Shown here: piece after piece, positions 1,428-38,392 of the stretch
How the letters are laid out: every line of letters starts with the position of its first letter
How positions within the stretch are numbered: the first letter of the stretch is position 1
Virus record (IMG/VR): IMGVR_UViG_3300045241_000231
Coordinates: 1-42,325 of that record
Source: a virus
Reading direction: 5' to 3' (one strand)
Length of the DNA: 42,325 nucleotides
Program-made: the position numbers and the translations under genes
Notes under the pieces: model-generated
Told to the model about the DNA's origin: nothing
Database searches by the model: none
What the model saw: only the letters and a program-made list of their open reading frames with translations

Positions 1428-1483
1428 CCTGTCCGGTTCCGGGAATCCCCTCTTGACTTCCGCCGCCGGCCGAGCGCATCCTG

Positions 1484-7736: not shown

Positions 7737-8027
7737 GTGGGACAATGCGCTGAGACGGAAAATATTACCTCCGTGGACGGTTTCGACGTCCCCCGCCGTG
7801 TCATCCGGCGCCCCTTCCTGGGCGAGCTGAGGGACATCGTCGAATATGACCTCTCTCTCACTCGCGAACGGGTGAAGGCGCTGTACCCCTCTGAAGGCAT
7901 CTGGGGGTTGGCGAAGAAGCTGGCCGCTGGCACCGCCGGGCCCTGCCGATTCATTTTTCCTGTTTCCGACGAAGAGATTGAGAGGCAAGAGGAGCGCGCC
8001 TTTAAGCGGGCGCAGGAGAAGAGCTGA
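7737..8027 (+). CDS. Unknown protein (96 aa) between portal and scaffold
   Basis: The GTG at 7737 follows GAGGAGG, which fixes the start; longer frames run back into the portal gene. The protein is basic to mixed charge, with VRRPFLGELRDIVEYDL in the first half and a C-terminal charged helix (EEIERQEERAFKRAQEKS). No domain recognised. The stop TGA overlaps the ATG of the next gene (TGATG). A head-assembly accessory role is inferred from position only. Confidence 0.7.
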   Translation: MGQCAETENITSVDGFDVPRRVIRRPFLGELRDIVEYDLSLTRERVKALYPSEGIWGLAKKLAAGTAGPCRFIFPVSDEEIERQEERAFKRAQEKS

Positions 8028-9130
8028 TGGAACCGTTCGCCGCCACACCCGCGCCAGAGTCCACCCCGGCCCCCGACCCCCAGGAGCAGCACGCCGCTCA
8101 GCTTCTCGAACGGGCGATCGAACGCTCGGAGCCGTCCCAGCCACCAGGCGCCGGCCGGCCGGAGCCCGCAGCGCCACCGGGCCCTCCCGCCGCCCAGACG
8201 CCCATCCCACCGCCGCCCCGGCCCCCGGCCGCGCCCCTGTTCGACCATCCGGCGAGCCGCGGCTTCATGTCCCGGGTGCAGGAAAGGGAGGCCAGGCGGG
8301 CTCAGGAAGCCCTCGCCGCCCGGGTGGAGGTCACAGCCCGGCTCCTGGAGCAACAGGGCCAGCCGCCGGCGCCGGCGCCCGAGGAGCCCGACTTCGACCA
8401 GGACCCGAAGACCTGGTACCAGCAGGAGATGCAGCGGCAGCTGCAGGTGGCCGTTGCGCCCCTGGTCGACTACGTGCGGCGCCAAAGCGAGAGCGAGCAG
8501 CAGTACGCCTCTCGCGTCCAGCAAGAGGAGCAGCGGGCCGCCTGGGGGCAGGCGATGGGCGAGGAGATGGACCACGCCCGCCACCTCTACGCGGCCACTC
8601 CGGAGGGCGAGCTTTTTGACCAGAGGTTCGACTTCTTCATCAACGACCTCACCGTGCCCGGCCTGGTCAGCACCGGCATGACGCCTGCCGAGGCCCAGAA
8701 TTTCGCCTCGGTTGGAATCATGGCCTGGACCGACTACGCCAGCCGGAAGGGAATCAACCCTGCCATCTTCATCGACACATTGATCCGGCACCAGATCGGC
8801 GCGACGGTCCAGATGCTCGCCGACGCCGGCTACGTGGTCTCCGGGCAGCCCCAGGACCAGCAGGGAGGCAACGGCAACGGTCACCGCCGGCAGACCCCCG
8901 CGAGCCCGGAGATCGCCGCCCTGCGCGAAACGGCTGCTGGCGCCGGCTCCGTCGCCGGGGTGATGCGGCAGACCACCGGCGGCCGGTCCGGGAGCGGCAT
9001 CCACGCTGTTATGGCCGACCCCTCGGTGGAGAACATCCGCGCGTGGGCCAACGACGAATTTGGGGGGGACACGAAAAAGGCCACGGCGGCGCTCCGGCGG
9101 GCGGTGGCTTCCGCGAGCGCCACCCGGTAG
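8027..9130 (+). CDS. Scaffolding-type protein (367 aa, probable)
   Basis: Built like a phage scaffold: a disordered Pro/Ala-rich first ~75 residues, a long helical Gln/Glu/Arg-rich coiled region (~80-200), a compact middle (VPGLVSTGMTPAEAQNF), and a basic helical end (TKKATAALRRAVASASATR) suited to binding capsid protein. It lies after the portal and before the capsid gene, as expected, although an antisense gene island now separates it from the capsid. Scaffolds are poorly conserved, so the call rests on composition and order. Coupled to the upstream gene by TGATG. Confidence 0.65.
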   Translation: MEPFAATPAPESTPAPDPQEQHAAQLLERAIERSEPSQPPGAGRPEPAAPPGPPAAQTPIPPPPRPPAAPLFDHPASRGFMSRVQEREARRAQEALAARVEVTARLLEQQGQPPAPAPEEPDFDQDPKTWYQQEMQRQLQVAVAPLVDYVRRQSESEQQYASRVQQEEQRAAWGQAMGEEMDHARHLYAATPEGELFDQRFDFFINDLTVPGLVSTGMTPAEAQNFASVGIMAWTDYASRKGINPAIFIDTLIRHQIGATVQMLADAGYVVSGQPQDQQGGNGNGHRRQTPASPEIAALRETAAGAGSVAGVMRQTTGGRSGSGIHAVMADPSVENIRAWANDEFGGDTKKATAALRRAVASASATR

Positions 9131-9155
9131 AGAGGGGGCAGGCACGCCTCCTGCA

Positions 9156-9374
9156 TTACTTTCCGGCATGGCTACCATGCTCATCCCCGTGCTCCTGATC
9201 GTCGTCGGCGTGCTGATCTACGCCCTCGCCACCAATCCTAAGGTCGCGGAGATCGGCCGGCTGATGTGCGCGGCCGGGTTCTTCGCCATCGCGTTCACCT
9301 TCGCGGGGAAGGGCGTAACGCTCCCGTAGACGGCGCCAGTAGTCGTATTCGTAGAGCATCCCCATCAGGATCAC
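9156..9374 (-). CDS. Possible last gene of the minus island (72 aa), antisense overlap
   Basis: GTG at 9374 overlaps the TGA of the upstream minus gene (GTGA). The first ~25 residues (MILMGMLYEYDYWRRLRERY) look like real protein. The rest is low-complexity, His/Asp/Gly-rich, and lies antisense to the membrane-protein gene at 9168-9329. Either the two genes truly overlap tail to tail, or only the N-terminal part was once coding. The coupling at the start is the best support. Confidence 0.4.
   Translation of the reverse strand: MILMGMLYEYDYWRRLRERYALPREGERDGEEPGRAHQPADLRDLRIGGEGVDQHADDDQEHGDEHGSHAGK
9168..9329 (+). CDS. Small two-helix membrane protein (53 aa)
   Basis: ATG at 9168 gives 53 residues with two hydrophobic segments: MLIPVLLIVVGVLIYALA (~4-21) and an AAGFFAIAFTFAG stretch (~35-47), joined by NPKVAEIGRLM. 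No Shine-Dalgarno is obvious, though GGCAGG lies 25 bases upstream. It may be a holin-like or other small inner-membrane protein; I cannot tell which. The 3' part overlaps an antisense frame of the minus-strand cluster (9156-9374). Confidence 0.6.
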   Translation: MATMLIPVLLIVVGVLIYALATNPKVAEIGRLMCAAGFFAIAFTFAGKGVTLP

Positions 9375-9754
9375 CGCGCACCTCCCCGCAGGATTTTCTC
9401 CAACATTCCGATCTCGATCCAGTAACCCGGCTCCTTTGCCCTTGCCAACAGCTTCTCCAACTCCGGCCACGCATCGCACCGTCGCTGCACTTCGTCCAGC
9501 TCTTCTAGGGTTAGATCTGCGATCCCATTGCTGGTATCGAAGTAGGCAAGCTTCCCGTAGTTGCGGGAGGTCTTCACCACCGTCAACGGGCAAGGAAGGT
9601 CGATCTTGACCGGCTCCTCCGGGTCCCAGACCGCCCCGGCGGCCTCGGCGGCTTCTCTCCGAATGCTCCGGTAGTGATCCATGCTGAGCGTGTGGCTGTA
9701 TGGGCCGCTTCGCCACATCGCCTCGCTCCGCCAGTCGAATTCTGACAGCTTCAT
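9371..9754 (-). CDS. Unknown protein (127 aa), minus island
   Basis: The start at 9754 is set by the ATGA overlap with the upstream gene and by GGGAGG a few bases before the ATG. An acidic, soluble-looking protein with KLSEFDWRSEAMWRSG at the N-terminus and helical C-terminal half (LEELDEVQRRCDAWPELEKL). No family recognised. Fifth gene of a tightly coupled minus cluster lying within the plus-strand structural region. Confidence 0.65.
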   Translation of the reverse strand: MKLSEFDWRSEAMWRSGPYSHTLSMDHYRSIRREAAEAAGAVWDPEEPVKIDLPCPLTVVKTSRNYGKLAYFDTSNGIADLTLEELDEVQRRCDAWPELEKLLARAKEPGYWIEIGMLEKILRGGAR

Positions 9755-10044
9755 CTCTGGCCTCCCTTCGTCTTCTTGGTCAACAGATCCGCCAACGACC
9801 TCCCGGGCTGGAGCTGCGTTGGGCTGGCGATCGGCTGGCACTCCGTCGTTGCGGCAGGCTCCAGCCCTCCCGGCCCCGTGCAGACGAGGCACGCGTTCTG
9901 CCGGCCGTCCCAGGTGAGCCGGTGCCGGCCGAACTCCTCAATCGGCTTGACCACCACGCCGTGGAGCGCGAAGTGCGGGACCTCCCGCTTGCCGTAGTCG
10001 CGGCCGGCGGTGTACTTCTCGACGGCATGCTGGGTGGCGATCAT
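9751..10044 (-). CDS. Unknown protein (97 aa), minus island
   Basis: The ATG at 10044 overlaps the previous TGA (ATGA), and its own stop overlaps the next ATG. The protein has a basic first half (MIATQHAVEKYTAGRDYGKR), three cysteines (ACLVC and TTEC) that could be part of a metal site, and a basic tail (LADLLTKKTKGGQR). No family recognised. Confidence 0.65.
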   Translation of the reverse strand: MIATQHAVEKYTAGRDYGKREVPHFALHGVVVKPIEEFGRHRLTWDGRQNACLVCTGPGGLEPAATTECQPIASPTQLQPGRSLADLLTKKTKGGQR

Positions 10045-10328
10045 GGCTCCAACCTCTTCATCCACGAGGACGGCGCTTCGATCATCGGCATTTTCGACCA
10101 CTCGCGGGGCTTCCTGTGGTGCCAGTCGGTCAACTCCCGGTATAGGTCGTCCACAACCATTCGCCGGACCTGGGCCGGCGCGTCGCTGAGCATGTAGGGC
10201 TGGAGCAGGATCTCGTTGGAGGCCTCGACACCTTCGGAAAACTCCGTGATTTTCACCCGGACCCCTCTTTCAGAAGCGACGATCTCCGCCGAGAACGAGA
10301 ACACTTTTCGCTCCTCGGAATTTGGCAT
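10041..10328 (-). CDS. Unknown protein (95 aa), minus island
   Basis: The ATG at 10328 overlaps the upstream TGA (TGATG). The predicted protein begins with a beta-rich part (KVFSFSAEIVASERGVRVKI) and ends in a helical part with VRRMVVDDLYRELTDWHH. No family recognised. Coupled at both ends. Confidence 0.65.
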   Translation of the reverse strand: MPNSEERKVFSFSAEIVASERGVRVKITEFSEGVEASNEILLQPYMLSDAPAQVRRMVVDDLYRELTDWHHRKPREWSKMPMIEAPSSWMKRLEP

Positions 10329-10537
10329 CACCCATCTCCTTTGATCCGCCGAACCGCCAGCGCCGCCGTCAGAAAGTCCGGCGCCGTCGCTCGAATGTTG
10401 GGGTAGTCGCGCAAGCTCACCTCGCAGCCGCGCTCCTCCCCGAAGGTGTCGAATTCGATCCGCGCCATCATCGTCTCTAGCCAGTCGAGCACTTCCTTGA
10501 GCGGGCAGAAAACCTCCTGCTGGTGTAGGTGGCTCAT
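10328..10537 (-). CDS. Unknown protein (69 aa), minus island
   Basis: It starts within the last bases of the upstream gene (4-nt overlap) and ends in TGATG with the next. Short helical protein with LKEVLDWLETMMARIEF in the first half and a C-terminal FLTAALAVRRIKGDG helix. No domain recognised. Confidence 0.6.
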   Translation of the reverse strand: MSHLHQQEVFCPLKEVLDWLETMMARIEFDTFGEERGCEVSLRDYPNIRATAPDFLTAALAVRRIKGDG

Positions 10538-10899
10538 GGCTGCCCCTCCCGGATCTTGCGGGCCAATTCGACGGGGCAGCGGGGGTCGTGGACGTCAACG
10601 GCCAGCGACTGAAGATATCCCTCAGTGACCGTCTCATACCGCCCCGAGGTCACCGGCCGCATGCCCTCGCGCACCTTGCCGAATTCGTTCAAACAAAGAC
10701 ACCCCGCCGCCCCCACTTTCGCGGCGGCGGACTCCCGGGCGGCAGGCGCGGCGTTCACTTGTCGCATCACCTCGCAAACAAGAACGGCGGCCACGCTCCC
10801 CGGCGGGAAGCTCCAAGAGAATTCTCCGTCGCAGCCGGTGGTGATTTCCGCCAGCTCGCCGTCTTCCGTCGTCCATCTGTGCTCCGTGATCTGCATCAC
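10534..10899 (-). CDS. Unknown protein (121 aa), minus island
   Basis: Starts at a GTG (10899) that overlaps the upstream TGA, or at the ATG three bases on. The middle contains FSWSFPPGSVAAVLVCEVM and a pair of cysteines (GCLCLNEFG). Soluble, mixed charge, no family recognised. Second gene of the cluster. Confidence 0.6.
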   Translation of the reverse strand: MMQITEHRWTTEDGELAEITTGCDGEFSWSFPPGSVAAVLVCEVMRQVNAAPAARESAAAKVGAAGCLCLNEFGKVREGMRPVTSGRYETVTEGYLQSLAVDVHDPRCPVELARKIREGQP

Positions 10900-11252
10900 C
10901 GGCTTCCCTTCGAGAGCTCGTCCGCCTGGAGAAGGGCTTCTCGGGTCTCGGCTTCGATCGCTCGAAGCGCGTCTATTCGCTGGAGGAAGTTGCCTCGGTA
11001 GGTTGGCGCTCCTTCGACTTCTTCGCCGAGCCGCGCTACGGCCATTGCGAGCGTCGCTTCACGGCACTTCACGGCGAGATCCAGGTCTTTCACGATCCGG
11101 CCCCAGGCATCCGCATCCCCAGAGACATCGTGCCCACCGGATGCGGATGAGAGGAGCTTGTAGCCGGCGGTTTCGGGGTCGCCGACCTCTACGACGGACA
11201 GCACGTAGTCGTCTTCCGGGTACGTCAGAATGATCGTCTCGGGGTCGCTCAC
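10896..11252 (-). CDS. Unknown acidic protein (118 aa), first gene of the minus island
   Basis: The GTG at 11252 (MSDPETIILTYPEDDY) follows GGGAGG by eight bases and is preferred over an in-frame start at 11300 with no such site. Acidic, with a beta-rich first half and a helical second half (FLQRIDALRAIEAETREALL). No family recognised. It opens the island and faces the capsid gene across 736 bases of untranslated sequence. Confidence 0.65.
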   Translation of the reverse strand: MSDPETIILTYPEDDYVLSVVEVGDPETAGYKLLSSASGGHDVSGDADAWGRIVKDLDLAVKCREATLAMAVARLGEEVEGAPTYRGNFLQRIDALRAIEAETREALLQADELSKGSR

Positions 11253-11321
11253 TTGCCGGCCTCCCTTCGGTAAGTTGTTTCTATTCTCCGCTACCACCAC
11301 CCTCCCCCTCAGACTGGATAC

Positions 11322-11353
11322 GGTAGGGTGCTGGCGCCCAGAGCTACCCTACC
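11322..11353. promoter_or_regulatory. Strong composite hairpin / operator candidate
   Basis: GGTAGGGT (11322-11329) pairs perfectly with ACCCTACC (11346-11353); inside, CTGG/CCAG closes a three-base loop CGC. It lies ~70 bases upstream of the minus-island start and ~470 upstream of the capsid promoter. It could be an operator, an attenuator in the minus leader, or a terminator. The half-site ACCCTA resembles ACCCTT of the inverted repeat at 1010-1037. Confidence 0.45.
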
Positions 11354-11648
11354 CCCAGCCGAGGCAAGAGGGTGAGGCCCTGGGAGATGGACTGGCCTAC
11401 GTATAGGTTCCGTCAGCCGTTCATCTAGCCCCCCGGAGCTGCGGCGAGCCCTCCGGGTCAGCAGCACCTTTGCCGGGATCGCCCCCGGCTCCCGCGCCCC
11501 GTCTGCCTTTCGCTCTGGGGCTGCTCCTGCGCGGGACCCCCACGGTCGGAGCTTTGGGCTCTCGGCTGGGCCGCCGTGCGTCTCACACCGACCCCAGCCG
11601 GGCCACGCGGCACCTTCAAATTTTTGAACTAGACGGGAGGAAGACGAG

Positions 11649-11783
11649 ATGATACACTTCGGCCCGCCCGTTCTTTTTTTCCCGGGGAGTCGGCCGCGAA
11701 ACTGGCTCTCCGGGACCTCTCAATCCTCCTCCCGCCGGAAACCGAAGTCAACCCCCCCGCAACGAATTCCCGAGATCTCGTAG
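11649..11783 (+). CDS. Candidate 44-aa ORF in the capsid leader
   Basis: ATG preceded by GGGAGG at nine bases. The product (MIHFGPPVLFFPGSRPRNWL...) is basic and resembles no family I know. Codon use is less GC-biased at third positions than neighbouring genes. It could be a leader peptide or chance. Confidence 0.25.
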   Translation: MIHFGPPVLFFPGSRPRNWLSGTSQSSSRRKPKSTPPQRIPEIS

Positions 11784-11801
11784 AATTCGCCCGGTTACCG
11801 C

Positions 11802-11831
11802 TTGACAGCCCCGGCGAAGATCCCGTACCCT
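11802..11831 (+). promoter_or_regulatory. Sigma70-like promoter for the capsid operon
   Basis: TTGACA (11802-11807), 18 bases, then TACCCT (11826-11831). The -35 is consensus; the -10 fits TANNNT. The predicted transcript starts near 11838 and runs ~150 bases before the capsid ATG. It matches the TTGAC/TANNNT form of promoters at 38101-38129 and 42124-42152. Confidence 0.55.
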
Positions 11832-11988
11832 CTTCGTCAGAAGTCCGGCCATAGGCCGAGGTGGAGACCGGCCCCCCGCTTATAGAGGGGACCGAGGGCT
11901 CCGGGCCCCCTTCAAGAGGTCCGAACGGTAGCAGCGGCCCCGCGCCGAGCGGGACACACGTTCAACCTCTTCACGGAGGGCCTCGCCG

Positions 11989-13125
11989 ATGGCAGGCCAG
12001 TCGATTCCCTACAGCAGCTCCCTGGCACAACAGATGTACCGGAGCGGTCTCATCCTGGAGACCGAACGGACTGTCCGCGCCTTCGCGTTCGCGGGCACCG
12101 AGCCCAACAACGCGATCGTGATGGAAGACAAGCCCGGCTCCGGCCGCGGCAACAACATCAAGATCCGGTTCCGCCCGACGAACCACAACCGGATTCCCCA
12201 GCCCCGCGGCGTGAACATCCTCGGGACCGAGGACACCCGCCCCACCCTGGAAGACGACATCTCCATCCGCTACTTCGTTATGGCGACGGGCGCGGTGGAG
12301 AACGTCACCGACCAGATGGAGGTCGACTTCGAGCTGATCGGCAACGAGCAGATCGGCATGGCGAAGGAGGCCGGCGAGATCTTCGAGCGGTCGGTGATGA
12401 ACCAGGCCTGCGGCTACACGCCGGTCAACGACACCACCACCTACCCCGATTACGCCTGGAGCGGCGGCAACATCGTCACCGAGCCAGACAGCTCCCATTG
12501 GTACTACTGCCCCGACAACAACGGGGCCAACGCTGACGAGGCGGCCGTCGCGGCCGACCCCAATTCCATCCTCACCAACCGGGTAGTGGACGAGGTGACC
12601 AAGCGCATGCGGTCCCTCGACTACATCACCTATCCGATCGCCCCGGCGGCGGTGGGCTTCGTCCCGGGCGGGGAGGCCTACATCTGCATGGCGAGCGGCG
12701 ACGGCATGCAGCAGGTCCGCTCGAACAGCAGCGACTCCGACGTCTACGACCTGAGCAAGGCCGCCATCCAGGGCGGTCTCCCCCCGCAGCTCTCGAACCT
12801 GGTCACCGGCGAGGGATTCTTCATCGGCAAGACGCTCTACGTCGAGAGCGACTTCTGTACCTTCGGAACCACCGGCACGGCCGGCAGCACCGCCACTGCC
12901 TCCCGCCGCGGCAACTGCAAGCGGGCCGTCCTCTTCGGCGCCCGTGGTCTGCACCTGGTGTGGGGCGAGTCCTTCACCGGCGGCAACCATCTCGGCTACA
13001 AGGAAATGCTCGTCTACCGGCGCCTCGGCATGATGACGGACACCGTGTGGGGCTGTAAGGCCGTTATCGTGAACGGCCAGCGGTGGGGCACCTTCGTCAT
13101 TTCCCACTACTCCCCGGTGGCGTAA
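11989..13125 (+). CDS. Major capsid protein, N4-gp56 type
   Basis: Forms the head shell (HK97 fold in this family). The 378-residue length suits the N4-gp56 family. The N-terminal region (SLAQQMYRSGLILETERTVR) precedes a conserved arm and E-loop-like region (GRGNNIKIRFRP) and FELIGNEQIGMAKEAGEIFE; near the C-terminus, MLVYRRLGMMTDTVWGCKAV, with VNGQRWGTFVISHY after it, matches the family's last beta strands. GGAGG lies eight bases upstream of the ATG. First gene of the plus operon after the long leader, followed after 13 bases by a probable decoration protein. Confidence 0.88.
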   Translation: MAGQSIPYSSSLAQQMYRSGLILETERTVRAFAFAGTEPNNAIVMEDKPGSGRGNNIKIRFRPTNHNRIPQPRGVNILGTEDTRPTLEDDISIRYFVMATGAVENVTDQMEVDFELIGNEQIGMAKEAGEIFERSVMNQACGYTPVNDTTTYPDYAWSGGNIVTEPDSSHWYYCPDNNGANADEAAVAADPNSILTNRVVDEVTKRMRSLDYITYPIAPAAVGFVPGGEAYICMASGDGMQQVRSNSSDSDVYDLSKAAIQGGLPPQLSNLVTGEGFFIGKTLYVESDFCTFGTTGTAGSTATASRRGNCKRAVLFGARGLHLVWGESFTGGNHLGYKEMLVYRRLGMMTDTVWGCKAVIVNGQRWGTFVISHYSPVA

Positions 13126-15902: not shown

Positions 15903-16145
15903 ATGGCCAACAAAGTCATCACCTACACCCAGGTCCCCATCATCCAGGAGAACGTCCGGGAGATTCACCTCGTGGCGCTCAACCCCGGCGCGACGGTCTT
16001 CCAGCTCACCGCGGTCTATGAGATCAAGGACTCGCTGGGCGGCCTGCGGGGCACCGGCACCTTCTCCCAGCAGGTAGCGACTGCCCCCGATCCTACCCAG
16101 CTCAACGCGATCCTCGCGGCGGCCAACGCGGCGCAAGGGACGTAA
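15903..16145 (+). CDS. Small virion-type protein (80 aa)
   Basis: The ATG at 15903 sits behind GGGGGAG; an in-frame ATG at 15888 lacks a site. The protein is beta-rich first (ITYTQVPIIQENVREIHLVA), with Pro/Ala/Gln-rich end (APDPTQLNAILAAANAAQG). No family recognised. Between the fibre-like genes and a small membrane protein. Confidence 0.6.
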   Translation: MANKVITYTQVPIIQENVREIHLVALNPGATVFQLTAVYEIKDSLGGLRGTGTFSQQVATAPDPTQLNAILAAANAAQGT

Positions 16146-18965: not shown

Positions 18966-19529
18966 GTGAAGGGCATCCACCCTTTCCCGAAATCGGACGC
19001 GGAGGAGCGGGAGAATTGGCGCGTCTTTTCCGACATCAGCGACGAGCTGTACTTCAAGCCGACGTTCTATGCGGGCGACGGGGCGTGCAGCCAGGGCGCC
19101 GCCTTTGTCTCGAACGTTCTGCCCGGCGACTCCACCGTGGAATTTCCGGCGGCAGCCGGCCTCATCCCGACCTGGCGGACCGAGTGCCGGCGGCGCGCCC
19201 GCTGGCGCAATGCGCGGGTGCGGATCACGATCACCTACTCGGCGATCGTCGGTGGAGTCAATCCCTTTGTCCTCGGGCTGCGGACTCGCGAGCACCAGGC
19301 CGGCGACGTCCTCGCGACCGCGAACATCCTGGCAGTCCGACTCGTGATCCCGGGGCCGGCAGTCGCGCAAACCGAGATGGAGGCCGTCTACGTCTCCCCG
19401 GCGGTGGCGATCAACGGCGCCAAGCCGAACCTCACGTTTGCGTTTTTCCGCGACAAGACCGACGCGGCCGACACCAACGCGAACAGCCTCCACGTCCTCA
19501 GCGTGGAGTGGGAGGTGATCCCGCTGTGA
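18966..19529 (+). CDS. Virion-type protein (187 aa), unknown
   Basis: The GTG at 18966 follows GGGAGG; an ATG two bases earlier hits a stop at once. Early region DAEERENWRVFSDISDELYF is charged; the rest is beta-rich with two cysteines and a proline-rich middle. Resembles head or tail surface proteins in composition; no family recognised. Its stop overlaps the GTG of the acetyltransferase gene. Confidence 0.6.
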   Translation: MKGIHPFPKSDAEERENWRVFSDISDELYFKPTFYAGDGACSQGAAFVSNVLPGDSTVEFPAAAGLIPTWRTECRRRARWRNARVRITITYSAIVGGVNPFVLGLRTREHQAGDVLATANILAVRLVIPGPAVAQTEMEAVYVSPAVAINGAKPNLTFAFFRDKTDAADTNANSLHVLSVEWEVIPL

Positions 19530-19987
19530 AGATGCTCCTCGCGGTCAACCCATTCGACCACTGGCCGATGTTTCTGGACGGCCTGAGGGGGCTTCTGGCG
19601 TCGAGCGACGGCAAGGTCCATGGCGCGCAAATGCCCCTCCGTCAGGCTGAGGCGGCCTACCGCGCCGGGCTCGCGCAGGGGCGTTTCCAGATGGGGCTCT
19701 TCTTCGACGACGGCGGGGAGCTGCTCGGCTTCAACATCTTGTCGAAGGCGGACGGCTGGCTGGAGGGCGGGCTCCTCTACATCCGGCCGGAGCGCCGCGG
19801 CAAGGGCCTCGGCCGCGCCACGAACGCCCCCGTCTTGGAGCTCGCCCGGGCAAAGGGGCTGCGCGGACTCCGGTTTCTCTCCACCCGGGATCTCTGGACG
19901 GGCTTCGACCGGGTCCCTCACCTCATCCAGGCGGACGGCACGCCGGTCTACGCCTTTTCAAAGGAGGTCGTTCCATGCCCTGGATAG
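19526..19987 (+). CDS. GNAT-family N-acetyltransferase (153 aa)
   Basis: The core motif is LLYIRPERRGKGLGRA (about residues 82-97), the R/Q-x-x-G-x-G/A acetyl-CoA loop of GNAT enzymes, preceded by a beta strand (GELLGFNILS) and followed by helix LELARAKGLRGLRFLSTRD. The N-terminus is a helix-rich substrate arm. It would transfer an acetyl group to an unknown amine. The GTG start overlaps the upstream stop; its end overlaps the internal-virion gene. Acetyltransferases beside internal-virion genes occur in other podoviruses. A virion or host target is possible. Confidence 0.75.
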   Translation: MKMLLAVNPFDHWPMFLDGLRGLLASSDGKVHGAQMPLRQAEAAYRAGLAQGRFQMGLFFDDGGELLGFNILSKADGWLEGGLLYIRPERRGKGLGRATNAPVLELARAKGLRGLRFLSTRDLWTGFDRVPHLIQADGTPVYAFSKEVVPCPG

Positions 19988-21540
19988 CACCAGTTGCCGG
20001 AGCAGTTATTGGAGCCGTGGGGTCCTACGTGGCCGCCAACAAGGCCAACCAGGGAAACCGCAACGCCGGCAAGGTGGACCTCACCACCACGAACCACAGC
20101 GACCCGCGCTCGGAGCCCTACCGCAATTACGGCGCCTCAACGGCGCAGAGCCTTCTCCAGGGGAACCTTTCGGCGCCCGGGTACAACGCCGGTGGCGGCG
20201 GATCGGCGAGGCCTGGCGGCGGAGGGCGGCGGAATCGCGGGGGTGGCGGCGGGGCCTCCGCGCCGGGTTTCAACGGCCAGAGCACCCAGACCGCCCAGGC
20301 CATCGCCGACGCGCAGCGGGTGGCGGCCGGCATGGAACACGGCCCGGTGACCACCGCAGCGCAGGGCTATGCCGCCGACACGCTGAACGGGATCGACCGC
20401 AACAGCTACCGCGGCGAGTCGGCCGACATGCTGCGGGGGCTCGACGATCCGGACCTCCAGCGCTACAAGGACATGCTTTTCAACTCGGACACCGGGCTCG
20501 GCGGGGGAGGGGGCGGTGGCGGCTACAGCGGCGCGACTTCCTGGGTCAACCCCAACACCGGCCGCGCGGTGTCGACCGGCGGCGGTGGCGACTACCAGAG
20601 CGCAGGGGACCCTACCGGCTCCGTGGCTGCCATCAAGTCGATTCTGGCCGGCGAGGACGCCCCCGGCGTGGCCGCCATGCGTGCCTCCATCAAGCACAGC
20701 GCCGACGACGCCTACAACGACCAGCTCCGCCAGCGTCGCCTCGAGGCGTCGGGCTCGAATATGTACGGCGGCTCCGGCCAGATGGCGGACGAAGCCTTCG
20801 CCACCGGGCGGTACGGCCAGGGTCTCGCCGACGCGTACGCCCAGCAAGCGTATGGGCTATACGGAAACGCCCTGGGCCTCGGCACGCAGTACGACATGAA
20901 CCTCAACGACAACGCCACCTCCCAGCGAAATGCCTCGTTGTCCGCCAGCGCGTCGGGTGCCGCGGCCGCGGCCGCACTCGCCCAGCAGGGCCAGCTCGCC
21001 CGCCTCAACGCCCTCGGCAACGCGGTAGGGATGGGCGTCCAACAGGGGCAGTTCCGAACCTCGGGCATGGGCTCCCTGGCGGAGGGCTTCAGCGCTGATC
21101 TGCGGGCCGCTGCGGGCGACGCCGGCACCACGAACGCGCTAGGGCAGCAGGGCTACCTCTCGGCTGGCGGACTCTCGCTCGGCAGCGACCAGGCGCGGAA
21201 CTCCTACATCTCCGCCCAGAACCAGCTCCGCGCCGCCCAGATCTCCGGGGGAAACCAACGGGCCGCCCTCAACTTTGACATCTACCGGTATAACCGGGAG
21301 GCGCCGATGTCGGACCTGGCCCGCTACTCGGATATCATCAACAGCATGTACGGCGGCTACGGCGCGGGTTCGCAGACCACCCAGGGCTGGGACCTCCGGA
21401 ATCAGTCCCCGGCCTACGTCTCGCCGGGCGGCCAGGCCATCGCCGGCGGTGTGGCCGGCTACCAGCTCGGGAACCAGATCTACAACACCTACCAGGGCGG
21501 CGGGGGCGGCGCTCCGATGGGGACCCACGGGGGAGGGTAG
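19975..21540 (+). CDS. Internal virion / ejection protein A (521 aa), Gly-rich
   Basis: Begins with a hydrophobic segment (WIAPVAGAVIGAVGSYVAA) followed by a Gly-rich disordered stretch (~70-100, ~165-195). A long helical Ala/Gln-rich part (GSVAAIKSILAGEDAPGVAAM, and QQGQLARLNALGNAVGMG) follows. This form, membrane-active N-terminus then Gly-rich linkers, is typical of podovirus ejection proteins that exit the head and help DNA cross the envelope. It overlaps the acetyltransferase end by 13 bases. Family not named. Confidence 0.65.
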   Translation: MPWIAPVAGAVIGAVGSYVAANKANQGNRNAGKVDLTTTNHSDPRSEPYRNYGASTAQSLLQGNLSAPGYNAGGGGSARPGGGGRRNRGGGGGASAPGFNGQSTQTAQAIADAQRVAAGMEHGPVTTAAQGYAADTLNGIDRNSYRGESADMLRGLDDPDLQRYKDMLFNSDTGLGGGGGGGGYSGATSWVNPNTGRAVSTGGGGDYQSAGDPTGSVAAIKSILAGEDAPGVAAMRASIKHSADDAYNDQLRQRRLEASGSNMYGGSGQMADEAFATGRYGQGLADAYAQQAYGLYGNALGLGTQYDMNLNDNATSQRNASLSASASGAAAAAALAQQGQLARLNALGNAVGMGVQQGQFRTSGMGSLAEGFSADLRAAAGDAGTTNALGQQGYLSAGGLSLGSDQARNSYISAQNQLRAAQISGGNQRAALNFDIYRYNREAPMSDLARYSDIINSMYGGYGAGSQTTQGWDLRNQSPAYVSPGGQAIAGGVAGYQLGNQIYNTYQGGGGGAPMGTHGGG

Positions 21541-26880: not shown

Positions 26881-27098
26881 GCGACGCGGCGAGAATCGCG
26901 GCCTTCCCGTCTTGCCCGGGGTCTGGCACGGAGATCAAGGCCGGCACCTCGTACATCTGCGGCATCTGCGGCGCCAGAGGGGGGGTGGAGAACGGAAAGG
27001 TCCCTGAGCACCTTGACCGCAGGGCCTTGGTAGAGGTCCCCGCAGTTGCGCAGGAGAGCCGCGTCCACTTCGTCGTTCAATGGGTGGACCCAAAATGA
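26877..27098 (+). CDS. Zn-ribbon-like protein (73 aa)
   Basis: ATGA-coupled to the preceding gene. It has Cys at residue 13 (SCPGSGTE) and a CGICG pair near 28-31, an incomplete zinc ribbon. The C-terminal half is Val/Pro/Asp-rich (FVVQWVDPK). The end overlaps the ATG of the lysin gene (ATGA), so the three genes are likely co-translated. Function unknown. Confidence 0.55.
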   Translation: MSDAARIAAFPSCPGSGTEIKAGTSYICGICGARGGVENGKVPEHLDRRALVEVPAVAQESRVHFVVQWVDPK

Positions 27099-27622
27099 AG
27101 ACGCCGGCGGAATGGGCCGCCCTTACCATCGTCACCGAGACGAATCAGCCGCACGAGATGCTGCCGATCGCCTGGGTGCTGCGCTACCGCGTCGCTTCCC
27201 CGCGCTTCCCGGACACCATGCAGGGCGTCGTTCTCCAGGAGAGGCAGTTCTCCGCCTGGAATCCCTGGACGCATGGGCGCTTCAAAGGGAAGTTTCCCCA
27301 GGAGGAGATCTGGCACGAGCTGTGGAAGACGCTCGATCAGCAGACCCAGGAGAAGCTCTACCCGGTGGCGCTCGACTGCGCGCTGAACGTGCTCGGCGGC
27401 GATCAGGGCTACTCGTCGCCGATCATCCCAGCAGGCCTGACGAACAGCAAACCAGCGCCGTCGTGGAGCGCGCCTTTCGGCCCTGAGGTCTGCTGGTACT
27501 ACTCGCCGGTGTCCATGGTCCCCGCGATGACCGCGCCGACGTGGGCGGCAACCGCGCGACGGACGTTCACGCCGTCCGGGATTGAACCTGCTCGCTTCGT
27601 CTTCTGCGAGGCGGTCGGGTAG
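27095..27622 (+). CDS. Endolysin, SleB/CwlJ-type cell-wall hydrolase (175 aa)
   Basis: The start at 27095 overlaps the previous TGA (ATGA). The pattern ALTIVTETNQPHEMLPIAWV then RYRVASPRFPDTMQGVVLQ, with ERQFSAWNP just after, is that of the SleB-type hydrolase domain (Hydrolase_2): catalytic Glu (~15), a conserved helix, R-x-R-V, PDT and the QFSxW motif. It would cut peptidoglycan at lysis. C-terminal residues are Pro/Ala/Thr-rich. It has no signal peptide, so it needs a holin. The i-spanin candidate at 28759 is nearby. Confidence 0.8.
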   Translation: MKTPAEWAALTIVTETNQPHEMLPIAWVLRYRVASPRFPDTMQGVVLQERQFSAWNPWTHGRFKGKFPQEEIWHELWKTLDQQTQEKLYPVALDCALNVLGGDQGYSSPIIPAGLTNSKPAPSWSAPFGPEVCWYYSPVSMVPAMTAPTWAATARRTFTPSGIEPARFVFCEAVG

Positions 27623-29715: not shown

Positions 29716-30398
29716 GCGGCCGCCTTTGCTTTGGCGCCTTCAGCCGGCCAGACCCAGACCCATTTATTCCGCCCGCGGCGCCCGGACCGGGAGTCTGGCC
29801 CCGAGTGCGAGATCTCTGGAGAACGGCCCCACCCGTCGAAGCGATACGTTCCCCCGGTGTGCATGTCCGCATCCTGGTAGCTGATCGCGAACGGACAGCC
29901 CATCGCCGGAAAGACAAACTCCCGCCACAGCCGGATCGTCACGCGCGACAGCCCCGGCCGTACTGCGCAGAGGCGGGAGAGTTCGATCGTATTGCTCCTA
30001 TTGAGATGGGGCAGGCCGCCGCCAACAGCATCGCGGATCAGCGTGCTCGTGGTGACAACGGCTACCGGCCCCTCCTCGCGGTGAACGAGCGCATGGGCGA
30101 GATCTCTGCTCATCGGCCTCCTCAACGGCCCCATTCGATGCTCCCATAACACCAGGAGCCCGTTGGCAGTTACGAGGTCGATCCCGTCAAACCACAGAAG
30201 AGGAATCAAGGGCGTCTGACAACCCTCTCGCCTTATCGGGACCGGCGCCGGCAGCTTCCGGCCGCAGCCGGCGCGCCGTCCCTCGAAGCGCGAGACGTCC
30301 ATGCAGACGTCGCCGCGCGGGTCTGGCGCGCTGCGGGTCGTGTACCAGACGATCCCGCAGGCGCACAGCATCTCGTACATGGCCGGCTTGTTGCTCAC
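29712..30398 (-). CDS. Mom-like / GNAT-fold protein (228 aa), probable DNA modification
   Basis: The GTG start overlaps the upstream TGA (GTGA). The first ~48 residues hold C12, C14, C32 and C45, a possible Zn ribbon. Then TTSTLIRDAVGGGLP, an ELSRLCAVRPGLSRVTIRLW strand-helix, FVFPAMG, and SYQDADMHTGGTYRFDGW (~173-190) with a basic DSRSGRRGRNKWVWVWP end. This resembles the acyl-CoA core and the end motif 'D-x-x-H-x-G-x-x-Y-R-x-x-G-W' of Mom-type proteins, which modify adenine in phage Mu to resist restriction. I am fairly but not fully sure. Confidence 0.55.
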   Translation of the reverse strand: MSNKPAMYEMLCACGIVWYTTRSAPDPRGDVCMDVSRFEGRRAGCGRKLPAPVPIRREGCQTPLIPLLWFDGIDLVTANGLLVLWEHRMGPLRRPMSRDLAHALVHREEGPVAVVTTSTLIRDAVGGGLPHLNRSNTIELSRLCAVRPGLSRVTIRLWREFVFPAMGCPFAISYQDADMHTGGTYRFDGWGRSPEISHSGPDSRSGRRGRNKWVWVWPAEGAKAKAAA

Positions 30399-30904
30399 CG
30401 GCCGAAGTGCTCCCGAATGAAGGTCTCCATCTTCGGCGCCTCGGTTGGGTCCGCCAGAGCTTCGGTGAGGTTTCTTTCTCCGCCGTAGCCCAGCGGCTCG
30501 GCCCAGTTCACGAGGTCCTCCTGAGTGGGCTCCTGGATCACCTCTGTCTCGCCGAGCACCGCCTGGCGCTCGTCGCCGCGGAGCTGGCGCACCTGCACCA
30601 GCTCGCCCGTGTCGTCGCGCCGGAGGAAGGCGGAGTCGGCGCTGTAGAGCCAGGTGCAGGTCACCACCCGCTCCTCCACTCCGGTCTCCACCACCTCGCC
30701 CAGATGCACGGTGTCGGCGTGCGCAAGGTAGATGCCGGCCTTCTTCGCCTTCGAGGCCTCCTTCATCGTGCTCTCCCAGGCGGCGAACTCCTCGCGCATC
30801 TCCTCCTCGCGCGCGACGCTCTCCGCGAGCTCCTGGGCCTTGGCCGCCAGCTCCTCCTCGGTCAGCTTCACCGGGAGGTGCCGGGATTCAACGGTCGCTC
30901 TCAT
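30395..30904 (-). CDS. Unknown protein (169 aa), helical N-terminus
   Basis: GGAGAGGAG precedes the ATG. Residues ~15-55 form a charged coiled coil (EELAAKAQELAESVAREEEM); the middle is a beta-rich domain (VTCTWLYSADSAFLRRDD); the end is acidic and basic mixed. No family recognised. It overlaps its upstream neighbour by 17 bases and is GTGA-coupled to the Mom-like gene. Confidence 0.65.
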   Translation of the reverse strand: MRATVESRHLPVKLTEEELAAKAQELAESVAREEEMREEFAAWESTMKEASKAKKAGIYLAHADTVHLGEVVETGVEERVVTCTWLYSADSAFLRRDDTGELVQVRQLRGDERQAVLGETEVIQEPTQEDLVNWAEPLGYGGERNLTEALADPTEAPKMETFIREHFGR

Positions 30905-31109
30905 CTCCTCTCCCTTCTCCCGGGCACGCCGGGGCTGTGTAGAACCATGTTGCGCCGTCTGGACTCTCGTAGGTCGTTCTGAAGAACGGCCCGCGCGGGT
31001 CCGGCTCGCGCACCTTCAACAGACCGCACCGCTGGAAGGTCCGGACGTGGACCGGGAGCGCCTGCCAGGGCACCTCCCGCTCGCCCGTGATCTGCCAACG
31101 GTGCCTCAC
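30888..31109 (-). CDS. Small protein (73 aa), unknown
   Basis: Basic start (MRHRWQITGEREVPWQALPV), a beta-like middle and acidic end. Could be a winged-helix-like DNA-binding protein (FQRCGLLKVREPD), but this is weak. ATGA-coupled to the gene before it. Confidence 0.55.
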   Translation of the reverse strand: MRHRWQITGEREVPWQALPVHVRTFQRCGLLKVREPDPRGPFFRTTYESPDGATWFYTAPACPGEGRGDESDR

Positions 31110-31762
31110 TGCGCTCCCAACGCCTTCCGCACCATCTTCAGCAGCTCGATCAGCGCCGGCCGAACCGCGGGGAAGACCTGGTGCACCACGAAGCCGTAGA
31201 AAAGCTCGTCCACCCGCTTCTCGGGAGCGCTGAGGCTGGACGCCGCTGGCGGCTGGACAGGCGGCACTACCACAGGCGGGTGTGGTGGCGGGATGACCGG
31301 GGGCGCCGGCACTTCGGCCCCGGGCTCAAGGCCGGCGTTCATGGGAACGATCACCTTCCGGTTGAACGCCGAGAGCACCCGCCAATCCCAGACCTCCGTG
31401 GGATCATGGGAGAGGGGATCAAGTCCGAGCTTCTGCCAGGTCTCGGCGTTGGGCAGCGGGCGGGCTTCCTCGTCCCCGTAGCCGATCGCGGCGTGCTGCC
31501 GGTCGGGGACGGGGTTGCCAGGCGGCTCGATCGGGGTTCCGAAGCCCGGCCCGTACCGGTCGATCAGGGCCTGCACCACCGCGGCCCGGCCGGCTACCCG
31601 CTCGTCCGGGATCTGCACGGCGGGGTTGATGTGCCCGCCGACCACCTGCATGTAGCGGTAGACGCCGGAGATCTCGTACGTCCGCATGAACGGCGTCGCG
31701 ACGTCGCCGCACCCCGGGAACGAGAGGAACCGCTGGGCGGCCTCAAAAACCTTGTTGCTCAC
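31106..31762 (-). CDS. Pro-rich protein (218 aa), unknown
   Basis: GTG overlaps the upstream TGA. N-terminal globular part (AQRFLSFPGCGDVATPFMRT), then a long proline/valine linker (PAPPVIPPPHPPVVVPPVQP, ~150-172) and a hydrophobic helical tail. The linker suggests two domains. No family recognised. Confidence 0.6.
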   Translation of the reverse strand: MSNKVFEAAQRFLSFPGCGDVATPFMRTYEISGVYRYMQVVGGHINPAVQIPDERVAGRAAVVQALIDRYGPGFGTPIEPPGNPVPDRQHAAIGYGDEEARPLPNAETWQKLGLDPLSHDPTEVWDWRVLSAFNRKVIVPMNAGLEPGAEVPAPPVIPPPHPPVVVPPVQPPAASSLSAPEKRVDELFYGFVVHQVFPAVRPALIELLKMVRKALGAQ

Positions 31763-32538
31763 TTTCCACCGCCCAGCAGCAGAGGCAGCAACGTGAGGAG
31801 CAGCGTCTTCGAATCGAGCTTGCCGCCAGAGGTCAGCGTCGCGAGGATCGGCTGGAAGATGGCGACCTCCTCAGGCGGCAAGGTCGGCAGGAGGAGCTTG
31901 AGCAGGGAGATAGCCGCGCTTCGGCTGCTCGACTCAACCGGCCCCGGAAACGGCCCCACCTGCGGATCGACCACGGGCGGAAGCTGAGGGACCGGGGGCA
32001 CGCCAGCCGGCGCGCCAGGCCACTCGACCGCGTCGTCCTCCCACGAGAACGTGTAGCCGGTCGGCGGGCCGAGGTCCGCGCCGATGACAGGCTTCATTCC
32101 CAGGAAGAACTCGAGGTGCTGGCCGTTCGGCGCGACATCCGTGTCGCTAGTGGCCGCCTGCGCGCCGGCCGCGACCACCGCCTGATGGCCCGTGAAGGGG
32201 ACGGTCAAGGTCACGGGGAAGGTCCCCTGTGGCATGCCGCCCATGTGCTTCACCGGGTTCTTCGCCCGGTTGCCCCCGTAGCCACTGAATTCAGCAGTTA
32301 GAGTGCCGTTGCGGACCTTGAGCTCGCAGATTTCGCTCTCGCGCGGGAGCCGGCCCTCGGCCGGGAGGTTGGGATGCATGGCGCTGTTCAGCGTGCGCAG
32401 GTGACAGATGCGGACGTTGCCGGTCGGCGCGGCCGGCGGGGTCACGGTGAAGTTGACGATGAGCGCGGTGGCGCCGGGAGGGGGGATGAGCTCCAGCCTG
32501 ACGATGGGCTGGGCGGCGGAAATCGTTACGGAAGGCAT
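31759..32538 (-). CDS. Two-domain protein (259 aa), beta-rich with Leu-rich tail
   Basis: The ATG at 32538 overlaps the TGA of the next gene upstream (TGATG). The first ~155 residues are beta-rich (IVRLELIPPPGATALIVNFT), then a proline-rich linker, then a Leu-rich helical end that includes ISLLKLLLPTLPPEEVAIF and TLLLTLLPLLLGGGK. The Leu-rich ends of this gene and the next (31106) suggest the two proteins bind each other or a membrane; inferred. No family recognised. Confidence 0.6.
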   Translation of the reverse strand: MPSVTISAAQPIVRLELIPPPGATALIVNFTVTPPAAPTGNVRICHLRTLNSAMHPNLPAEGRLPRESEICELKVRNGTLTAEFSGYGGNRAKNPVKHMGGMPQGTFPVTLTVPFTGHQAVVAAGAQAATSDTDVAPNGQHLEFFLGMKPVIGADLGPPTGYTFSWEDDAVEWPGAPAGVPPVPQLPPVVDPQVGPFPGPVESSSRSAAISLLKLLLPTLPPEEVAIFQPILATLTSGGKLDSKTLLLTLLPLLLGGGK

Positions 32539-32762
32539 CAGTGGGCTCTCTTTCTCGCGGCCGGCTTCGGCTGCGGAGTCGGAAGGGACGGGAAGTCCAA
32601 AACAGCGAGGGTTTCCTTTACGCCTCCGGGCGTGTTGCCGTCCACTGCTTCGGAGAGCGTTTCGATCAGGGCGCCGAGGGTGGAAAGATCGTTGTGGTCG
32701 TCGACCTCCATCCACCCGTCTACGTTCGCCGTGTCGCTTCTGAGGTGAAAGCTAATTCTCAC
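32538..32762 (-). CDS. Small protein (74 aa), unknown
   Basis: Starts MRISFHLRSDTANVDGWMEV; the end is Pro/Lys/Arg-rich. Mixed beta/alpha; no domain recognised. Its TGA overlaps the next ATG by one base. It starts 12 bases after the previous stop, behind GGGAGAG. Confidence 0.6.
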   Translation of the reverse strand: MRISFHLRSDTANVDGWMEVDDHNDLSTLGALIETLSEAVDGNTPGGVKETLAVLDFPSLPTPQPKPAARKRAH

Positions 32763-32773
32763 GTTCTCTCCCT

Positions 32774-33328
32774 TCAGTTGACGCTCGCGGGATCGTCCCC
32801 GAGCGCGGATTGCAGACTCGCGCGGACGGACGCCACGAGCGGCGCCACCTCCGCGATGTTTCCGGTCAGGTCGAGAAGGAACAGCGCATGGATGGCGTCG
32901 GCGAGGTCCTTCTGGCCGGCGCGACGAGCGGCGAGCTGCGCGTTCGTGAGGGCCTCGTAGACTGAGGAAAGCGCGAGCGGGTCATCCCCCTCCGCCGGAC
33001 AGGTCGAGCAGGTGACGCTCGGCCCGAGCGGCAGACCGCACCCGCAGCCCGGACAGCGCCGGCCAGGAGCTGGATCGTGGCGCGCTGGGCGCCCCACTGA
33101 GCCCCGATCTCCCCGCCGGAGGATGTCCCGCAGCCACGTACCCGCTCTGCGCAGCCAGGAGCGGCTCCGGCGGGCCGCGCGAGCCTTTCTGGCGGCCTTC
33201 CTCTCCCGCAACTCGCCAGCGATGCAGACCAGGGCGCGCGGGTCGGTCAGGTCGTGGCAGCCCTCCCAGCGCTTCCCCGGCACGGCGGGATCGCTGAGGA
33301 GCACGCCCCTGGCGCGGGAGCCGATCAC
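32774..33328 (-). CDS. Zn-ribbon protein with basic helix (184 aa)
   Basis: GTG at 33328 overlaps the upstream stop. Residues ~40-75 are Arg-rich (ERKAARKARAARRSRSWLRR). A zinc ribbon follows: CPGCGCG and CSTC near residues 92-110. The C-terminal half is helical and Ala-rich. Probably binds nucleic acid; no family recognised. Confidence 0.65.
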   Translation of the reverse strand: MIGSRARGVLLSDPAVPGKRWEGCHDLTDPRALVCIAGELRERKAARKARAARRSRSWLRRAGTWLRDILRRGDRGSVGRPARHDPAPGRRCPGCGCGLPLGPSVTCSTCPAEGDDPLALSSVYEALTNAQLAARRAGQKDLADAIHALFLLDLTGNIAEVAPLVASVRASLQSALGDDPASVN

Positions 33329-33747: not shown

Positions 33748-34790
33748 CACGCCTCCTCGTCTCCCGGCTGCCGCCCGTTCTTGAGCGCGGCCAGCCCGTC
33801 GATGTTCTTCCTCAGCGCCGCCAGCCCGATCGCAAGTTGCTCGGGCGGCAGCGCGGCGATTTCCTTCCACACCCGCGAGCCGAAAGCGGACTGCAGTTCG
33901 TCTTTGGCCCGTTCCTGGCCGTTCAGCGGCTTCAGAGCCGCGAGGATCTCCTTCCGTAGCTCGGCGGCGCGGATGGCCGACTCGGGATCGGCCGGCGGCG
34001 GGGCCTGCGCGGGCTTCCCGGTGGGACTGGCGACATCACCGCGCGCCCACTTCGCCAACGCCTCCCCCAGGTTCTCATCCAGAACCGCGCCTGCCTTCAG
34101 CATCTCGCGGAATTGCACTGGCACCTTCACCATGGCCCGCTCGCCGATCTCCTCGGGGACAAGCGCGGGCACACCGTTCGACGCAGGGGGCAGAAAGAGA
34201 TTCATCGTCATCTCATAGGTGAACTCGTCCGAAACAATCGGCTGGTAGCCGAGCGGTACCGGTTCCTTCCCTTTCACGAGCTTGAGCTTTTCCTTCGCCC
34301 GGAAGCAGAAAATAAAGTTGCAGTTGATTTGCAAAAGAGTATTGATGAGGCGCCGCAGCTCGGCTTTCGGCTTCACCCAGGCCAGCATCTTGATCCGCTC
34401 GCGCTTCGCGTAGTCGTTCCCCGCGAGCCGGTCCAGCTCCGCCTCGTGCATCTCCAGCACGCCGCCCTGTCCCTCCCAGACATGCGAGCCCGAGTCCACG
34501 ATGATTTGCCCGGCCCCTTGCTTTGCGCAGTGCTCAATAGCGGCGAGGTAGTCGAGCGGCCCGAACGGCGCGAGGAAGGGAACATGCCGAAACTTGAAGA
34601 GATCGGCGTAATGCAGCGCCCGGTTCGCCTCGGTGTCGATGAAGAACGTCGGCTTGCCGGTGACGCGCTCCATGCCGGTCGCGAGGCGGTCGGCGGTGTA
34701 GGTCTTCCCTGAACCTGATGGACCAAACAATCCCAAAAGCACGGGGACAGCTTTCCGCACGGCCGGAACGTCCTCAAACTTGCGAGGCAT
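33747..34790 (-). CDS. Sak4-like RecA-type ATPase (347 aa)
   Basis: Walker A is GPSGSGKT (23-30); Walker B is IIVDSGSHVW (~96-105), with a conserved FFIDTEANRA strand before it and the catalytic WVKPKAELRRLINTL helix after. This suits the Sak4/AAA_24 (RecA-like) recombinases that phages use for single-strand annealing or strand exchange. The C-terminal ~90 residues are Ala/Lys-rich, beyond the ATPase core. It lies near the RecE-like exonuclease, a common pairing. Start at 34790; the HNH gene ends 16 bases inside it. Confidence 0.8.
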   Translation of the reverse strand: MPRKFEDVPAVRKAVPVLLGLFGPSGSGKTYTADRLATGMERVTGKPTFFIDTEANRALHYADLFKFRHVPFLAPFGPLDYLAAIEHCAKQGAGQIIVDSGSHVWEGQGGVLEMHEAELDRLAGNDYAKRERIKMLAWVKPKAELRRLINTLLQINCNFIFCFRAKEKLKLVKGKEPVPLGYQPIVSDEFTYEMTMNLFLPPASNGVPALVPEEIGERAMVKVPVQFREMLKAGAVLDENLGEALAKWARGDVASPTGKPAQAPPPADPESAIRAAELRKEILAALKPLNGQERAKDELQSAFGSRVWKEIAALPPEQLAIGLAALRKNIDGLAALKNGRQPGDEEA

Positions 34791-35361
34791 AGTACATCTC
34801 CTTCGCCTCGCTGGCGATTGCTGCCGCTTCGGCTACGGTATCGAAGGTACCCAGGTAGTAACGCTTGCCGCGGAGACTAATGTTCGCCATCCACCGCGCG
34901 TGATTCCGCGCCACCCCAAACGGCATCTTGCCTTTCCGCCCGCGCGCGCGGCGGGCCATGTCCTCGCGGTTCTCTGCGTCGGTCCCCGGCCGGAGATGGT
35001 CGATGTTGCAGCAGGCCGGGTTATCGCAGGAATGCAAAAGAAACGGTTTCCCCGGCGGGTAGTCTCGTCCGGCAAGCTCCCAAGCCAAGCGGTGCGCGGG
35101 GACAAGCCGCCGCGTCCCGTCGTCGCGGCTACCGACGCCGAGCTGCCCATATCCGCCCGACTTCGTGAGGTGGCCGGTAAACTCTATGCACCCTGTGGCC
35201 GGGTTGAGCTGAAGCCGCTCCTCAAGCCTTTCCCGGTCGGTCTTCTTCCTGCGCCCGTGACCTCGATAGTAGGACAGCTCGTCGCCCTTCGCATATCCGC
35301 GGTCCGGGCGGTCGGTGGCGGCCCGCGGCGCTTCCCTTCCGCATCCGCAGCGGCACTTCAC
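34774..35361 (-). CDS. HNH homing-type endonuclease with AP2-like tail (195 aa)
   Basis: An N-terminal cysteine knuckle (CRCGCGRE) precedes the HNH domain: H90 in LVPAHRLAWELAG, then PFLLHSCDNPACCNIDHLRP (~106-125) with conserved His/Asn/His and two cysteines. The C-terminus (NHARWMANISLRGKRYYLGT; ~153-172) is AP2-like, a DNA-binding domain often joined to HNH in homing enzymes. It sits between two genes of the recombination module, so it is probably a mobile insertion. It overlaps the Sak4 start by 17 bases. Confidence 0.8.
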   Translation of the reverse strand: MKCRCGCGREAPRAATDRPDRGYAKGDELSYYRGHGRRKKTDRERLEERLQLNPATGCIEFTGHLTKSGGYGQLGVGSRDDGTRRLVPAHRLAWELAGRDYPPGKPFLLHSCDNPACCNIDHLRPGTDAENREDMARRARGRKGKMPFGVARNHARWMANISLRGKRYYLGTFDTVAEAAAIASEAKEMYYASQV

Positions 35362-38129: not shown

Positions 38130-38392
38130 GCCCCTCTTTGAGAGAAAAGTTGCCCTTGGCTCTCGTCCTCGACGTAGTCGATGAAGGGCACCTCGTCAAT
38201 CCGGTAACGGCTCCCCCAATGAGGGTAGAAGTAATCGGGTCCGGTAAATTCCGGGGCGCCGGCCGCGCGGTGAGCTTGTTGGTCCTCTTCCTCGATCGCG
38301 CGAAGGCGCTCCAGTGCGTCTCGCCTCCCGCCGCGAACGGCCTCCTTCGCCCGGCCGGAATTGAGAGAGACGATCAAGTAGACGCAAGGCAT
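38126..38392 (-). CDS. Unknown protein (88 aa)
   Basis: The ATG at 38392 follows GAGGAA. The N-terminus MPCVYLIVSLNSGRAKEAVR is hydrophobic then charged; the C-terminal half holds FTGPDYFYPHWGSRYRIDEV. No family recognised. It overlaps the HNH gene 3' end by 19 bases. Confidence 0.6.
   Translation of the reverse strand: MPCVYLIVSLNSGRAKEAVRGGRRDALERLRAIEEEDQQAHRAAGAPEFTGPDYFYPHWGSRYRIDEVPFIDYVEDESQGQLFSQRGA

Follow-up and report, generated by a model that had tools for sequence, protein, structure and literature searches.

The island of small minus-strand genes that splits the putative scaffold gene from the major capsid gene of this phage is probably a moron-like, early-expressed and exchangeable accessory cassette. 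The stretch of DNA analyzed here, called the window below, comprises 42,325 bases and is a whole viral metagenome record (IMGVR_UViG_3300045241_000231). Six open reading frames (ORFs) on the minus strand span 9371–11252, and successive ORFs overlap by 4, 4, 1, 4 and 1 nt. Judged from sequence, the six ORFs are coding and joined by start/stop overlaps, their block is collinear with one at another locus of a related phage, and genes have been replaced at its junctions.

Late genes occupy the plus strand from about 1,060 to 29,300, and early genes occupy the minus strand from about 41,400 down to 29,300. The terminase, portal and capsid were identified through PHROGs. The single close relative that was found, G001 (IMGVR_UViG_3300035112_000036, 44.4 kb), was reached through a search with the cassette protein P0005 and is the only relative with the block. 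Allowing for different start points, its gene order agrees with that of the window along most of the length of the two genomes. The capsid proteins share 29–31% identity (31927–33117 in G001), and both phages encode homologues of an exonuclease VIII/RecE-like protein and of a Sak4-like ATPase. The product of 8027–9130 gave no family match, and we call it a scaffold by its position and its weak similarity to the product of 30543–31670 in G001 (24–25% identity). The phage belongs to a podovirus-like group. The features discussed below are listed in Table 1.

Table 1 Features of the scaffold-capsid region and related sites in the window.
Feature	Position	Strand	Remark
Second late promoter-like site, TTGACT-N18-CATCCT	1453..1482	+	Upstream of packaging operon
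Putative scaffold gene, left neighbour of cassette	8027..9130	+	Between portal and capsid
Terminator-like hairpin	9133..9154	+	Right part shared with G001 block upstream of 53-aa gene
Seventh ORF, doubtful	9156..9374	-	Start conserved; rest antisense to 53-aa gene
53-aa two-helix membrane protein gene, convergent with cassette	9168..9329	+	94% aa identity to G001 19155–19316
Junction J2, Shine-Dalgarno site and start codon	9369..9385	-	17/17 nt identical to G001 19858–19874
P0006, 127 aa, orphan	9371..9754	-	Codon score; no relatives
P0005, 97 aa, zinc-finger protein	9751..10044	-	74% identity to G001 19860–20327 (aligned residues)
P0004, 95 aa, orphan	10041..10328	-	Codon score; no relatives
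P0003, 69 aa, orphan	10328..10537	-	Codon score; no family match
P0002, 120 aa, orphan	10534..10896	-	Codon score; no relatives
Junction J1	10893..10926	-	33/34 nt (97%) identical to G001 20700–20733
P0001, 118 aa, first cassette gene, GTG start, GGGAGG upstream	10896..11252	-	Codon score; no relatives
Non-coding leader	11253..11801		No coding-quality ORF; expected site of cassette minus-strand promoter
Capsid promoter-like site, TTGACA-N18-TACCCT	11802..11831	+	Only occurrence in window
Major capsid gene, right neighbour	11989..13125	+	PHROG major head protein, E=7e-9

Because long ORFs commonly arise by chance at 67% G+C, we scored the ORFs using a codon model trained on the phage's own confident genes. 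The cassette ORFs scored 0.11–0.27 per codon, the own frame outscored the other five frames in each of the six, and every start (6/6) was preceded by a purine-rich Shine-Dalgarno (SD) site. As a control, 46 shadow ORFs of at least 60 aa within known genes averaged −28 in total score, with no more than 8–23 for the eight highest-scoring ones. On the basis of this control, we rejected wholly antisense noise as an explanation of the block. The codon score of the cassette resembled that of the early genes (p=0.83) and differed from that of the late genes (p=0.004). The G+C contents of the cassette (63.2%), early (66.4%) and late genes (67.6%) differed little. The early strand and the early-like codon score support the assignment of the cassette genes to the early type.

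The original prediction, made from the letters alone, had described six to seven minus-strand genes, each overlapped by 1–4 nt with the next, that split scaffold from capsid and face a long leader. The position between the two head genes and the leader (11253–11988) were confirmed, as were six of the genes, with overlaps of 1 or 4 nt, SD sites and coding scores. The seventh gene (9156–9374) is doubtful, as it is mostly antisense to a better-supported plus-strand gene at 9168–9329 that had been overlooked. The seventh ORF scored 0.11 per codon, and the plus frame scored better. Its first residues, MGMLYEY, are common to G001, and the frame diverges after a 1-nt indel.

The plus-strand gene encodes a 53-aa protein and scored 0.48 per codon. 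Nucleotide differences from the G001 copy number 3, 0 and 14 at codon positions 1, 2 and 3; therefore, 9168–9329 encodes a real plus-strand protein under constraint. The gene was also present in three further contigs, L004 (7989–8150), L024 (near 974) and L025 (near 6001), and is thus conserved across several otherwise unrelated phage contigs. Its 3′ end is overlapped or nearly touched by opposing minus-strand genes in three genomes: the window, G001 and L004. Some holins have two hydrophobic segments. The 53-aa protein also has two and is holin-like by size and shape only; we do not annotate it as a holin, as it gave no family match. The DNA shared with G001 begins near 9141, within the terminator-like hairpin upstream of this gene; three terminator-like sites were found in total, against 2.3 expected by chance.

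We compared the window block with its version in G001, which lies at a different locus (19128–21061), before the packaging genes. The scaffold and capsid genes of G001 adjoin, 257 bp apart with no genes between them. The G001 block begins with the 53-aa gene on the plus strand, followed on the minus strand by the start of the seventh ORF, a lysin, the homologue of P0005 and additional small genes, one of which gave weak Arc/NikA-like ribbon-helix-helix matches. P0001–P0004 and P0006 are absent from it, and the opposed orientation of the 53-aa gene and the minus-strand genes is the same in both blocks. Five collinear anchors connect the two versions, namely the 53-aa gene region, the seventh-ORF start, J2, P0005 and J1. 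The first of these (9141–9339, the 53-aa gene and the upstream hairpin region) is 87% identical over 199 nt.

J1 and J2 are ribosome-site/start junctions. The genes on either side of J1 are unrelated between the window and G001. J2 is the junction of P0005 and the lysin in G001, and its sequence occurs once in the window, where the lysin is absent and the ends are joined as GTGATC-CTGATGGGG, with the J2 sequence running directly into the start of the seventh ORF. Block genes are thus replaced at conserved start/stop junctions, and the two genomes provide a clear example of a start/stop junction that is preserved while both flanking genes have been replaced.

Core proteins of the window and G001 share 24–33% identity, and parts of the block reach 74–94%. 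Third-position identity reached 0.74 in the 53-aa gene and 0.69 in P0005, versus 0.44–0.49 for TerL, portal, scaffold and capsid. Because the identity of the block is far above that of the core, the block was probably exchanged horizontally between phages. Small-gene islands with 85–92% protein identity to G001 were also observed at 30395–30904, 32774–33097, 38374–38742 (HNH-like by PHROGs) and 15903–16145, pointing to apparently recent exchange of single small genes. Rad52-like phage recombinases recombine short, diverged homologies (PMC3945230); we infer a link between the Sak4-like ATPase and such recombination, and PMC3945230 itself does not mention Sak4.

The proteins themselves gave few clues to function. 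None of the six cassette proteins could be named from Pfam, PHROGs, NCBIfam or PADLOC, in agreement with the original prediction, which recognized no known family among them, and the family libraries revealed no nuclease domain in them. Searches for relatives of P0005 and P0006 in viral contigs and of P0006 in genome contigs returned only G001, via P0005. When P0001, P0002, P0004, P0005 and P0006 were compared with annotated phages, G001 remained the sole relative, again via P0005; P0003 was covered by the family libraries and the G001 comparison. PDB sequence searches found nothing credible. The AlphaFold models for P0005 and P0006 reached a mean pLDDT of only 40–41 and were left out of fold searches. 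Apart from P0005, whose G001 relative gave finger matches, the cassette proteins are orphans; the zinc finger of P0005 is the only recognizable domain in the cassette.

The G001 homologue of P0005 contains both pairs of a CxxC..CxxC finger and matched endonuclease VII (4e-6), HNH and Lar-like (4.8e-5) families, mainly across the zinc finger (PHROG 1035, 2340, 2633 and 5558). It shares this finger with endonuclease VII, HNH and Lar-like proteins and has no nuclease domain. P0005 of the window lacks the first CxxC pair and thus does not have the two pairs that characterize the endonuclease VII finger family. The loss fits a 27-nt in-frame deletion between the near-identical repeats GTCAAGCCG and GTGAAGCCG.

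The original prediction interpreted the island as an early anti-host or anti-defence cassette and the best candidate for an undescribed system. Such a dedicated operon, in which several proteins would jointly block defence or shut the host down early, seems unlikely to us, although it is the strongest of the alternatives. It would suit the early strand, the small coupled orphan genes and their variable content, and the P0005 relative in G001, which is intact, matches a Lar-like restriction-alleviation family, besides the endonuclease VII families. However, no anti-defence match was found in Pfam, PHROGs, NCBIfam or PADLOC. PADLOC, which covers defence and not counter-defence, gave no cassette match at E<=0.5, and no known toxin-antitoxin or defence-system model matched the cassette. 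Furthermore, the zinc-finger match is limited to the finger, of which the window copy lacks one CxxC pair, and P0005 is the only cassette protein shared with G001. With only P0005 in common and a lysin in the G001 block, the two gene sets do not form a conserved system, and such a difference in content speaks against a single co-adapted system of several proteins. The block is better described as a shuffled version of a G001 module that includes a lysin, which weakens the claim of an undescribed system. A separate, antisense, early-type cassette stands, and an anti-defence role for it is possible but unsupported by any PADLOC, Pfam or NCBIfam match. We assign a similarly low probability to a "plug-in" locus, at which orphans would be exchanged singly at J1 and J2 and at least one protein would be an undescribed early inhibitor of host function or defence. 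The five orphan proteins are reasonable, unranked candidates for phage accessory-function screens.

The lysin of the G001 block (Hydrolase_2, PF07486, 6e-9; 19414–19863, L007:4414–4863) raises the question of a displaced lysis module, of which the window copy would be a remnant whose lysin was lost or moved to 27095–27622. The lysin lies exactly at J2, the window J2 is fused directly to the seventh-ORF start, the 53-aa protein has the two hydrophobic segments of some holins, and a related lysin (35–41%) is encoded at 27095–27622. We nevertheless regard this explanation as improbable, more so than an anti-defence operon: the lysin could equally be an insertion in G001, nothing in five of the six window genes points to lysis, and the early strand would be an unusual place for lysis genes. 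The two Hydrolase_2 lysins are on opposite strands and in different places of their genomes.

We examined the scaffold-capsid gap in distant relatives, which were reached through the portal and in whose records some scaffold and capsid assignments are positional. The gap contains a minus-strand HNH endonuclease gene in Paracoccus KLEP18-1, an HNH endonuclease gene in Rhizobium RHph_Y1_10, a homing endonuclease gene in ctDrO704, and a CsrA-like gene in BcepIL02, PEp14 and Itty13. In Microcystis phage Mae-JY35, the gap is about 157 bp and gene-free. The premise that scaffold and capsid genes usually adjoin therefore applies to G001 and Mae-JY35 but not to several other relatives, which have at least one gene in the gap. 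Judged by these gene orders, insertions have arisen repeatedly between the scaffold and capsid genes. In Agrobacterium phage Atu_ph08 (NC_070876.1 12682–14365, L018), three minus-strand genes directly follow the scaffold region; the capsid gene was not located.

Homing endonucleases are known to cluster next to essential genes and at the boundaries of exchange (PMC10448857). The cassette shares with homing endonuclease insertions and HEG-islands (PMC10448857; KLEP18-1, RHph_Y1_10 and ctDrO704) the same gap, DNA far more alike than the remaining genomes, and the swapping of modules beside essential genes. In contrast to them, it has no nuclease gene, and the HNH genes of the window lie only elsewhere (34774 and 38374). 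The absence of a nuclease rules the cassette out as a homing endonuclease insertion, even though it sits where such insertions occur. On the early strand, 34774–35361 encodes a protein with HNH_3 and AP2 domains that is likely a free-standing homing endonuclease; no counterpart was found in G001.

The occupation of the same gap by homing/HNH endonucleases in relatives, and the endonuclease-associated finger of P0005 with its in-frame deletion, might also be read as signs that the cassette is decaying filler without selected function, a leftover of homing-endonuclease activity at the site. We give this reading little credence, as none of the six frames is disrupted, their SD sites and coding scores are good, and only 6 of 93 nt, four of them third positions, distinguish the N-terminal part of P0005 from its G001 counterpart. 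An assembly artefact, in which a chimeric contig placed an early-region fragment in the head operon, is very improbable: the contig is metagenomic without known ends and G001 has the block elsewhere, but no gene is broken at either edge, the capsid gene retains its leader with a conserved promoter-like site, relatives show natural insertions in the gap, and the window counterpart of the G001 block site (1392–1484) is uninterrupted and contains the other late promoter-like site, which indicates one coherent copy of the block.

The promoter-like site preceding the capsid gene lies 187 nt upstream of it in the window and 177 nt upstream in G001, with identical hexamers and spacing. The second late site, at 1453, corresponds to TTGACG-N18-TACCCT at 23892 in G001, likewise ahead of the packaging operon. 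A looser motif, TTGAC-N19-YANCCT, had two matches in the window against 0.05 expected by chance; because the sites themselves guided the choice of pattern, this value is only indicative. On the minus strand of the leader, no consensus promoter was found, and one weak candidate was detected at 11751. The fold of the capsid leader was no better than that of shuffled sequences (z=−0.83), and searches for Rfam families and tRNA found none. A hairpin near 11681–11716 was rejected as a terminator, as its T run precedes rather than follows it.

Under the preferred interpretation as a moron-like cassette, the polycistronic, translationally coupled, small early-type genes would form a loose block that moves between related phages and landed in the scaffold-capsid gap. 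Early transcription would run leftward from the cassette's own promoter, predicted within 11253–11801, and the products may be small, individually dispensable proteins that modify the host or the phage. Late in infection, the head genes to the left of the cassette would be read from the promoter near 1453 and the capsid gene from that at 11802, so that the antisense insertion would not silence the capsid. Leftward and rightward transcripts would converge across the 53-aa membrane gene. The idea that transcription from the cassette opposes the late operon holds geometrically for the region upstream of the cassette, but the capsid gene seemingly has its own promoter downstream. We propose that the antisense insertion is tolerable because the capsid promoter-like site sits downstream of the cassette; in this podovirus-like group, the gap takes insertions, even antisense and multi-gene ones, probably thanks to such a promoter.

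Definitions and criteria for morons and regions of genomic plasticity have been described (PMC4378225, PMC2920897). Like morons, the cassette is inserted between genes that adjoin in relatives (G001 and Mae-JY35) and consists of small orphan ORFs whose content varies from phage to phage. P0005 and the 53-aa gene are shared with G001 despite a core identity of 24–33%, as is expected of genes shared across phages. The cassette differs from the usual moron, a single gene, in its six coupled genes. It is also antisense to the head operon, no promoter of its own was found, and its G+C content is only slightly different. The lambda nin region is a chain of small genes with overlapping start and stop codons that is exchangeable among relatives. 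The cassette may be likened to it, and differs in genome position and strand relation.
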